Part shown: positions 27,123 to 29,004 of the stretch, piece by piece
Position numbering within the stretch: the stretch's first letter is position 1
Layout of the letters: every line of letters begins with the position of its first letter
Assembly (NCBI GenBank): GCA_018820855.1
Contig: JAHJNL010000060.1
Location: forward strand, 1 to 64,000
DNA length: 64,000 nt
Direction of reading: 5' to 3'
Source: Pseudomonadota bacterium
GTDB lineage: Bacteria; Desulfobacterota; Desulfobulbia; Desulfobulbales; Desulfocapsaceae
Position numbers and translations under genes: made by a program
Notes under the pieces: model-generated
What the model was told of the DNA's origin: nothing
The model's database searches: none
What the model saw: the letters and a program-made list of their open reading frames with translations, nothing else

Positions 27123-27361
27123 TAAGAACACAATAAAACAGGGAGATACAATTCGACTCAACACAGCACCGCAAGAGAATACGCTGAACTACCCTATAGT
27201 TTATCGGACGCGTCTCTAATCCAGACAGAAGCTCTGATTTTTTGTTTATCTTCCATAGGTTGATCAGGCCACCGAATTTCTCTTATAATTCTTCTCGGTA
27301 TTGTAGTAAAAATGTGCAAGTTCACCAAGTTGAAAATATTTTAAAATATGTTTTGATGAAG

Positions 27362-27367
27362 TATAAT
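27362..27367 (+). promoter_or_regulatory. -10 element of the riboswitch transcript
   Basis: A perfect TATAAT stands 26 bases before the first pairing strand of the riboswitch. No good -35 is found at the normal distance (27339-27344 is TTTTAA), so an activator or another sigma factor may help. Confidence 0.55.
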
Positions 27368-27393
27368 ATGTTGTTATAGAAATAAAATGTACT

Positions 27394-27474
27394 GGTTACC
27401 ATAACAGATAAAGCCAAACCTGCTGGAAGGCAGGGACGGAACGCCACGGATCTTACCAAGATAGCCGGGTTGCC
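27394..27474 (+). ncRNA. Cyclic di-GMP-I (GEMM-I) riboswitch aptamer
   Basis: The class I GEMM pattern is complete. P1 5' strand GGTTACC (27394-27400) is followed by GCCAAACC (27413-27420) and the P2 hairpin CCTGCT-GGAA-GGCAGG with a GNRA tetraloop. GGGACGGAACGCCACGG (27433-27449), the P3 hairpin ATCTT-ACC-AAGAT, the tetraloop-receptor strand AGCCGGG and the P1 3' strand GGTTGCC (27468-27474) complete it. The base that by eye aligns with the ligand-selecting G20 of the Vibrio Vc2 RNA is G27413, which favours c-di-GMP over cGAMP; this alignment is my own. The next gene encodes an exported protein. See the overlapping terminator for the switching mechanism. Confidence 0.95.
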
Positions 27475-27501
27475 TGAGCAAAAGGTAACCCGGCTTTTTT
27501 T
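27463..27501 (+). terminator. Riboswitch expression platform: intrinsic terminator
   Basis: AGCCGGGTTGCC (27463-27474) pairs with GGTAACCCGGCT (27484-27495) and is followed by a T-run to 27501. The 5' arm is also the receptor strand plus the P1 3' strand of the aptamer, so aptamer folding and terminator folding exclude each other. Ligand binding should stabilise P1 and prevent termination, making an ON switch. The free GGTAACC could then pair with 27394-27400, which is exactly complementary. Confidence 0.9.
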
Positions 27502-27689
27502 ATTGGATAAAAATTTTCAGAACCAGGATCAAAGGGCTGGTGCCATACAGATTCCTTACTTTTTCCATACAAGATTCCGACGTATTTTTTTGCTTCTTAT
27601 CCCGGTTTTCATCGGATTCTTGAGTATTATATTGATCGGCGGATTGTGTAGCTGTTCAAGACTAATTACCTTTGAAAGGAGAGAGAAAC

Positions 27690-28250
27690 ATGAAAAAGAT
27701 ATGCATTGGAGCAGGAATTTCGTTAGTTGTTTTGTCGTCTTGGTTTTGCCTTGCAGCGGACAAGGTTGTCGTGGTTCCTCTCAACCGCGCCAGCGAGGCC
27801 ATTCCGGCGGGAGCGGTGATGCATTTCAATCTGGCCAGCTGTCCTGACGGCTGGAGTCCGATTGTCGAAGGACAGGGAAGGGTCTTGGTCGGGATTTCTT
27901 CCTCAGGAGGACTTGGAGCAACTGTAGGTGCACCGTTATCGGATGGCGGAAGCCGTGTGATTACAGATGTTGCAAGTCACCAGCACACAGTTGATCCTGC
28001 TCCAATCTCAACCAATAGCTCGGGTGAACACACGCACAATCTTCATATTGAAAACATGGATTCATATGGAACTTATGCAGTTGCCGGATCAGAAAATAAT
28101 GCAGGAGGCTATTATTCACTTCCGACATATTCCGCGGGAACACACTCACACTCGCTTGATTTGCCTTCCACCTCAACGAGTGCAACCGGTTCCGGAAATG
28201 TAGACGTGACAATGCCCTATCTTCAACTCTTGATCTGCGAGAAACTTTAG
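27690..28250 (+). CDS. Exported phage-collar-like protein with HxH motifs
   Basis: The start at 27690 is chosen because AAAGGAGAGAG lies just upstream; the ATG at 27672 precedes that site. The 186-residue product has a signal peptide (cleavage near CLAA-DKVV), then a tail-collar-like part with SCPDGW (about 50-55) and ending VTMPYLQLLICEKL. Between lie three HxH motifs: His97/99, His114/116 (GEHTH) and His142/144 (GTHSH). GxHxH motifs in the T4 gp37 tail-fibre tip bind iron, so metal-stapled trimer formation is a reasonable inference. It sits alone about 190 bases after the c-di-GMP riboswitch terminator. A secreted or surface adhesin-like role is inferred. No phage genes are near. Confidence 0.85.
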   Translation: MKKICIGAGISLVVLSSWFCLAADKVVVVPLNRASEAIPAGAVMHFNLASCPDGWSPIVEGQGRVLVGISSSGGLGATVGAPLSDGGSRVITDVASHQHTVDPAPISTNSSGEHTHNLHIENMDSYGTYAVAGSENNAGGYYSLPTYSAGTHSHSLDLPSTSTSATGSGNVDVTMPYLQLLICEKL

Positions 28251-28470: not shown

Positions 28471-29004
28471 TTACCGAGGAATCTTCACATTACCATCGTC
28501 ATAGTTCCCCTGTTCTGCTGTGGTGTGGCAGGCAATACAGTTAGCGCGGGAACCAATCGCTTCCAGGTTAAAGACATTAGCTTCTATCTTCCTATGTTTT
28601 TCAATTATATATGGTGCTTCCGTGATCCGTGTCGGGGTTACGCCTTTGAGGCTTCTGTAAATCTTTCGTGATCTTTTAGAGGATGATTGTTCCGCTCCGT
28701 TCGCTGTTAAATATGTCCCGATATCTTTTACTGCTGCATCATCAATTGAGACCTCTTCACCGAAATGCGAGGGTAATTGAGCAAGCAGTTTTCCCCAGGA
28801 ATCTGAAGGAAGAAGGCCTGGTTGATAGGCAAAATGACAGGCGCCGCATTCCTGTTTGTATGCTGCATTTGTTACTGGTGCCAGATATTTTTCCCCTTGT
28901 TCTCCGTGCCCCTTATCCTTATCGGCAAAGCTGTCTGAAGATACTGAAAGTATTAAAAGACTGAAAAAGATGGTGCACAAGATCATTGTTCGTTGCTTTG
29001 TCAT
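28471..29004 (-). CDS. Exported dihaem c-type cytochrome
   Basis: The 177-residue protein has a signal peptide ending near SDSFA and two haem-binding motifs, CGACH (53-57) and CIACH (156-160). The spacing, the AAYKQECGACHFAYQPGLLP segment and the region after the first haem fit the dihaem cytochrome c (DHC, PF09626) family. It is a periplasmic electron carrier of unknown partner. It begins 27 bases after the RND pump stop, with AAGGAGGAACG before the ATG, so it is the last gene of that operon. Pairing a cytochrome with an RND efflux operon is unusual. Confidence 0.9.
   Translation of the reverse strand: MTKQRTMILCTIFFSLLILSVSSDSFADKDKGHGEQGEKYLAPVTNAAYKQECGACHFAYQPGLLPSDSWGKLLAQLPSHFGEEVSIDDAAVKDIGTYLTANGAEQSSSKRSRKIYRSLKGVTPTRITEAPYIIEKHRKIEANVFNLEAIGSRANCIACHTTAEQGNYDDGNVKIPR

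Follow-up and report, generated by a model that had tools for sequence, protein, structure and literature searches.

Why should a riboswitch of the c-di-GMP-I (GEMM-I) class stand in front of a gene for an exported protein that resembles the tip of a phage tail fibre? We addressed this question for a single locus within a 64-kb window (the whole stretch of DNA analysed, 64,000 nucleotides). The RNA element, the covarying terminator that overlaps it, the predicted export signal of the product, the leader segment behind this signal and the domain homology of the product are established here. The reading that we consider probable, with good but not full confidence, is that of a c-di-GMP-I ON switch driving an exported, leader-bearing collar or tip protein, a small and probably trimeric surface or extracellular binding domain produced at high c-di-GMP. 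All coordinates are those of the plus strand unless stated otherwise.

The aptamer and its overlapping terminator

The only Rfam match over threshold in the whole window falls at 27404-27478 and is to c-di-GMP-I-GGC (RF03167; 60.5 bits against a gathering threshold of 59, E 8.6e-12 for the whole window). The first-pass annotation had proposed a GEMM-I aptamer at this place, and the covariance model of the canonical c-di-GMP-I riboswitch (RF01051) recovers it at the same site with 60.2 bits against a threshold of 35. The 5' bound given earlier, 27394, was 10 nt too far; the modelled P1 is formed by 27406-27407 with 27474-27475. Like the riboswitches of both Rfam families, which it matches at 60 bits, the element has all helices and the conserved core. 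Its nucleotides were assigned by our reading of the Vc2 numbering, which places G20 at 27413, C21-G46 at 27414-27439, A47 at 27440 and C92 at 27473. The letters GGC in the model name presumably stand for nucleotides 20, 47 and 92; unlike that model, which has G at position 47, the element reads G20/A47/C92. As an RNA the element is ordinary and has no unusual feature compared with known c-di-GMP-I riboswitches.

The aptamer is followed by an intrinsic terminator (27463-27502) that shares its 3' strand. The terminator scan identified a hairpin of 13 pairs at 27463-27495, with the 5' arm at 27463-27475 and the 3' arm at 27483-27495, followed by a T run. The strand 27463-27475 is common to the terminator and the ligand-binding fold, and the two are mutually exclusive; when the leader was folded through the T run, the terminator formed and P3 was lost. 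The one other terminator-like match in the scan corresponds to the P2 hairpin of the aptamer as it reads on the minus strand.

The genome contains 12 GEMM-I elements above the cut-off, and the other 11 have the same overlapping-terminator design. Covariation of both structures was tested on the same alignment of these 12 elements (A6). The aptamer helices, including P2 and P3, have two-sided changes in 11 of 19 pairs, with 96% of cells paired. The terminator helix has two-sided changes in 4 of 12 pairs, and 94% of its cells are paired versus 25-51% in slid controls. None of 500 shuffles reached the score of the aptamer, and none of 500 the covariation score of the terminator; pairing collapsed when either helix set was shifted by 1-3 columns. 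An overlap of the same kind is present at 50 of the 54 GEMM-I sites in the genus. Since both competing folds covary across the 12 elements, the prediction of a transcriptional ON switch is well supported, and the sharing of the terminator 5' arm with the aptamer 3' strand described in the first-pass annotation stands.

In the proposed mechanism, the aptamer 3' strand AGCCGGGTTGCC would pair with the downstream AGGTAACCCGGCT when no ligand is present, which would terminate transcription and hide the C that pairs with the ligand (27473). Binding of c-di-GMP would instead keep the 3' strand in P1 and P3, and RNA polymerase would read through into one gene. The same architecture is known from the Geobacter pilM GEMM-I ON switch, in which terminator and aptamer are mutually exclusive and the terminator, built from the aptamer's own 3' strand, sequesters the ligand-pairing C (PMC9262584). 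The pilM switch, however, responds to cGAMP and governs genes for pilus assembly, whereas the present element carries G20 and precedes a gene for an exported collar-like protein.

Two further sequence features are of lower weight. The assignment of a candidate sigma-70 promoter (TTTAAA-16-TATAAT, 27340-27367; 10 of 12 positions in a consensus scan) is weak because 2.2 such sites are expected by chance in the region. The sequence GGTTACC at 27394-27400 could pair along its whole length with 27484-27490 of the terminator 3' arm (7/7 pairs; aptamer energy -15.5 to -23.9 kcal/mol), and we speculate that it could serve as an accessory antiterminator strand; we give this little weight, since no counterpart was seen in the sister elements of the 12-element genome alignment.

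The exported collar-like product and its surroundings

The gene behind the switch (27690-28250, ATG at 27690) encodes an exported collar- or tail-tip-like protein of 186 aa, hereafter P0001. Sequence inspection and a simple hydrophobicity rule predict a signal peptide, MKKICIGAGISLVVLSSWFCLA (27690-27755), without a lipobox. It is followed by the leader segment ADKVVVVPLN (27756-27785), which is common to other exported proteins of the genus. The following gene (28474-29004) is on the opposite strand, so the transcript is probably monocistronic; together with the predicted N-terminal signal peptide, this agrees with the earlier claim that a single exported product is controlled. The neighbours encode a PAS histidine kinase, CorA, a CNNM-domain protein, a dihaem cytochrome, an RND pump and a HAMP kinase, and no phage genes were found among those scanned, which confirms the non-phage setting noted before. 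An empty-site comparison in congeners was prevented by the poorly conserved synteny of the locus.

The rest of the protein is a collar or tail-fibre-tip-like domain (27801-28247). Pfam matches only the relatives of P0001 and not P0001 itself, and for this reason we term it collar-like and not a member of a Pfam family; PHROG gave only weak tail-fibre matches. A single-sequence search with P0001 found no relatives in genome contigs or viral contigs, and the exact C-terminal DNA pattern of the gene was absent from viral contigs. Two search rounds yielded 14 and then 24 viral relatives, together with one bacterial relative in genome contigs, and the nearest relatives are mostly phage tail fibres. 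The resulting alignment of 26 sequences (A3), whose members include Gp10_C and Collar domains, conserves P-x-G, P-x-GW, the first and third HxH motifs and the terminal strand. Its profile, which includes both P0001 and the viral relatives, matches the tail-fibre protein PDB 9qgo with E 8.8e-13, and it is this profile homology that bears out the tail-collar-like assignment of the first-pass annotation.

P0001 shares with Gp10_C (PF21939), Collar (PF07484) and IPSGTKMLF-type phage tail-fibre tips a P-x-G...F/S...P-x-GW core, HxH motifs and a terminal YxxxxxxxK strand. It differs from them in lying below Pfam detection, in having a signal peptide and in the lack of a fibre shaft. The domain begins 15 residues past the predicted signal-peptide cleavage site, which leaves no space for a shaft; hence "fibre", the term used at first, is the wrong word and a free-standing tip is the better description.

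The bacterial relative is an exported non-phage protein of 429 aa from a Deltaproteobacteria MAG (JAFGRB010000092.1; L072:2308-3597). It has the same tip domain, 47% identical to that of P0001 in A3, and ends in VDVSMPYIQLLMCQKD where P0001 ends in VDVTMPYLQLLICEKL. Unlike P0001, it has a different N-terminal part, about 10 HxH motifs and no GEMM-I element upstream. No relatives of P0001 were found in the congeners searched within the genus. For weak matches in further genomes of the same class and phylum (L050, L055-L057), the translations inspected contained nothing collar-like, and the matches were set aside as chance similarities in or opposite unrelated genes. A phmmer match to PDB 7on7 (SAKe6BE-L2, a six-fold repeat protein) covered only a short repeated stretch and was rejected.

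The AlphaFold model of the monomer has a mean pLDDT of 57 and is confident in the collar core only, with much of the HxH region below 50; if the domain folds as a trimer, a poor monomer model of the HxH stretch would come as no surprise. With this low-confidence monomer as the query, all six Foldseek matches were tail-fibre or baseplate structures, each with E > 1.

We infer the identity of the ligand, the trimeric state of the product, its location and its binding role. The exported product, with its ADKVVVVPL leader and almost wholly composed of the tail-fibre-tip or collar domain, would act as an adhesin- or lectin-like binding domain, at the cell surface or extracellularly, and would be made in attached growth, when c-di-GMP is high. 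The locus would connect c-di-GMP, which usually signals an attached way of life, with a domain of the phage receptor-binding type outside any phage.

Metal binding, ligand and origin of the gene

The HxH motifs lie at residues 97, 114 and 152 (27978, 28029 and 28143). All three motifs listed in the first-pass annotation are present, but the GxHxH form is limited to two of them, the first motif reading SHQH. As that annotation suggested, the same switch could drive a trimeric needle stapled by metal, like that of T4 gp37, the HxH motifs of its three chains holding iron or zinc, and we regard this as a tentative alternative that has a real chance of being correct. It is favoured by the presence of three HxH motifs, the first and third of which are nearly invariant across the 26 relatives, and by the T4 long tail fibre tip (2xgf) being ranked first by Foldseek; however, the latter match is non-significant (E 1.3). 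The needle of gp37 has many more HxH motifs, which are in register along it, whereas P0001 has just three, separated by long unrelated loops, in a stretch that was modelled without confidence. HxH motifs moreover occur throughout the Collar and Gp10_C relatives, where they are at most putative metal sites, and any metal held by those of P0001 is likewise putative.

Because nucleotide 20 is G, the ligand is expected to be c-di-GMP and not cGAMP, the change tied to cGAMP recognition being G20A. That the element senses cGAMP or another dinucleotide is unlikely. Such a ligand would be in line with the top Rfam model being the variant c-di-GMP-I-GGC, and many Geobacter GEMM-I riboswitches bind cGAMP (PMC6456294). 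Against it, G20 is present in 12/12 GEMM-I elements of this genome (and in 130 of 142 GEMM-I sites), the presumed position 47 is A and not the G of the GGC model, and the canonical model trails by no more than 0.3 bits.

It is also improbable that P0001 is a decaying prophage tail-fibre fragment caught behind an unrelated riboswitch and devoid of selected function, as might be suspected from its mostly phage-borne closest relatives and from the lack of the gene in the congeners searched, since a complete signal peptide and leader are fused in frame to a full domain that runs as far as the conserved C-terminal strand, the scanned neighbours include no phage genes, and an exported non-phage bacterial protein carries the 47% identical domain.

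The leader family and other GEMM-I targets

About 140 GEMM-I loci of the family were surveyed, the first gene behind each being picked by a simple rule. P0001 was the sole match to the collar profile among them, so the search for further collar-like products among GEMM-I targets that the first-pass annotation had proposed gave none. The collar-plus-GEMM pairing is a single case, and the other exported collar proteins found are without GEMM. A rough signal-peptide criterion classed 35 of 53 genus targets of GEMM-I as exported, a modest enrichment given that it did the same for 18 of 44 window genes. Extracellular modules found in the genus targets include cadherin-like, FG-GAP, fn3 and CarboxypepD_reg.

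What P0001 shares with other targets is the leader segment, which has no Pfam match. The pattern [DN]-[KN]-V-x-[VI]-[VI]-P-x occurs 38 times in 20 genomes of the genus. Ten of these genes, including that of P0001, are directly behind a GEMM-I element, with 0.05 expected (p ~4e-21; p ~5e-16 versus a rough count of exported genes only), where gene totals were estimated and orthologous pairs among the ten are not independent. The C-terminal parts of the ten proteins differ, being collar-like, short beta-like (an orthologous pair), Lcl_C-like, repeat-rich beta-helix-like and, in several cases, unknown. The association is not explained by duplication of whole GEMM-UTR-gene units, as the 5' regions are unlike each other outside the aptamer-terminator block except for short leader-codon stretches and one orthologous pair. 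The remaining 28 leader genes have no adjacent GEMM-I; they include genes for a classical Collar protein, a collagen-repeat protein and a protein with an FGE-sulfatase domain. Since such leader proteins exist, the riboswitch, as judged from gene context, acts on only some members of a modular family of exported proteins, of which P0001 is one variant. A stricter leader pattern was found in only 3 of 395 genomes phylum-wide, and the leader therefore looks largely restricted to this group. Neither the leader shared with other GEMM-I targets of the genus nor the singleton status of the collar product was part of the first-pass annotation; both are new here.

The classical Collar protein (L227:744-1310, from a congener) is exported, has a DKVVVIPL leader, matches PF07484 with E 3.7e-28 and has no GEMM-I upstream; we read it as microcystin-dependent-protein-like. 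Other leader proteins of the genus (L198, L202, L205, L209, L213, L225 and L228) have C-terminal parts that are repeat-rich, small beta-like, collagen-repeat, DUF1554/Lcl_C-like or FGE-sulfatase.

A broader reading, which we consider doubtful, is that c-di-GMP-I riboswitches of the genus drive a swappable set of exported proteins with the DKVVVxPL leader, whose adhesin-like and tail-tip modules would form a variable surface-binding repertoire. On this view, P0001 would be a tail-tip trimer that stands alone, is stapled by metal and has been recruited as an adhesin, and the leader could be a sorting or assembly signal. A sorting role of the leader, if real, would hint that this group has an export or assembly route not yet described. 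The leader family also supplies a set of exported proteins whose control by one second messenger can be tested. In the open-access literature we found no paper that connects GEMM with tail collars, phage tails or tail fibres, nor any on the leader peptide. Neither this type of product nor the set of exported proteins united by the leader, which are often placed behind the same class of riboswitch, seems to have been described before; it is this product type and the leader association that merit follow-up.

Several other GEMM-I loci were observed in the course of the survey. On another contig of the same genome (C52; L004:1684-2190), a GEMM-I element precedes a gene for a signal-peptide protein that contains the Hcp domain of T6SS (PF05638, E 2.3e-28). 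This adds the tail tube as a second tail-related fold behind GEMM-I; the protein adjoins one with MopE-like metal-binding motifs. The contig of P0001 carries, outside the window, a stronger GEMM-I element of 70 bits on the minus strand (G000:C43:78978-79054; L230:14977-15053); the gene assigned to it by the rule begins 479 nt behind the element, and its product is small and lipoprotein-like. In one further genome (G035), two GEMM-I elements about 6 kb apart (L182 and L183) each precede a gene for an exported protein. The two proteins, which we read as fibronectin-like, share their N-terminal sequence, and the pair apparently results from a recent tandem duplication.
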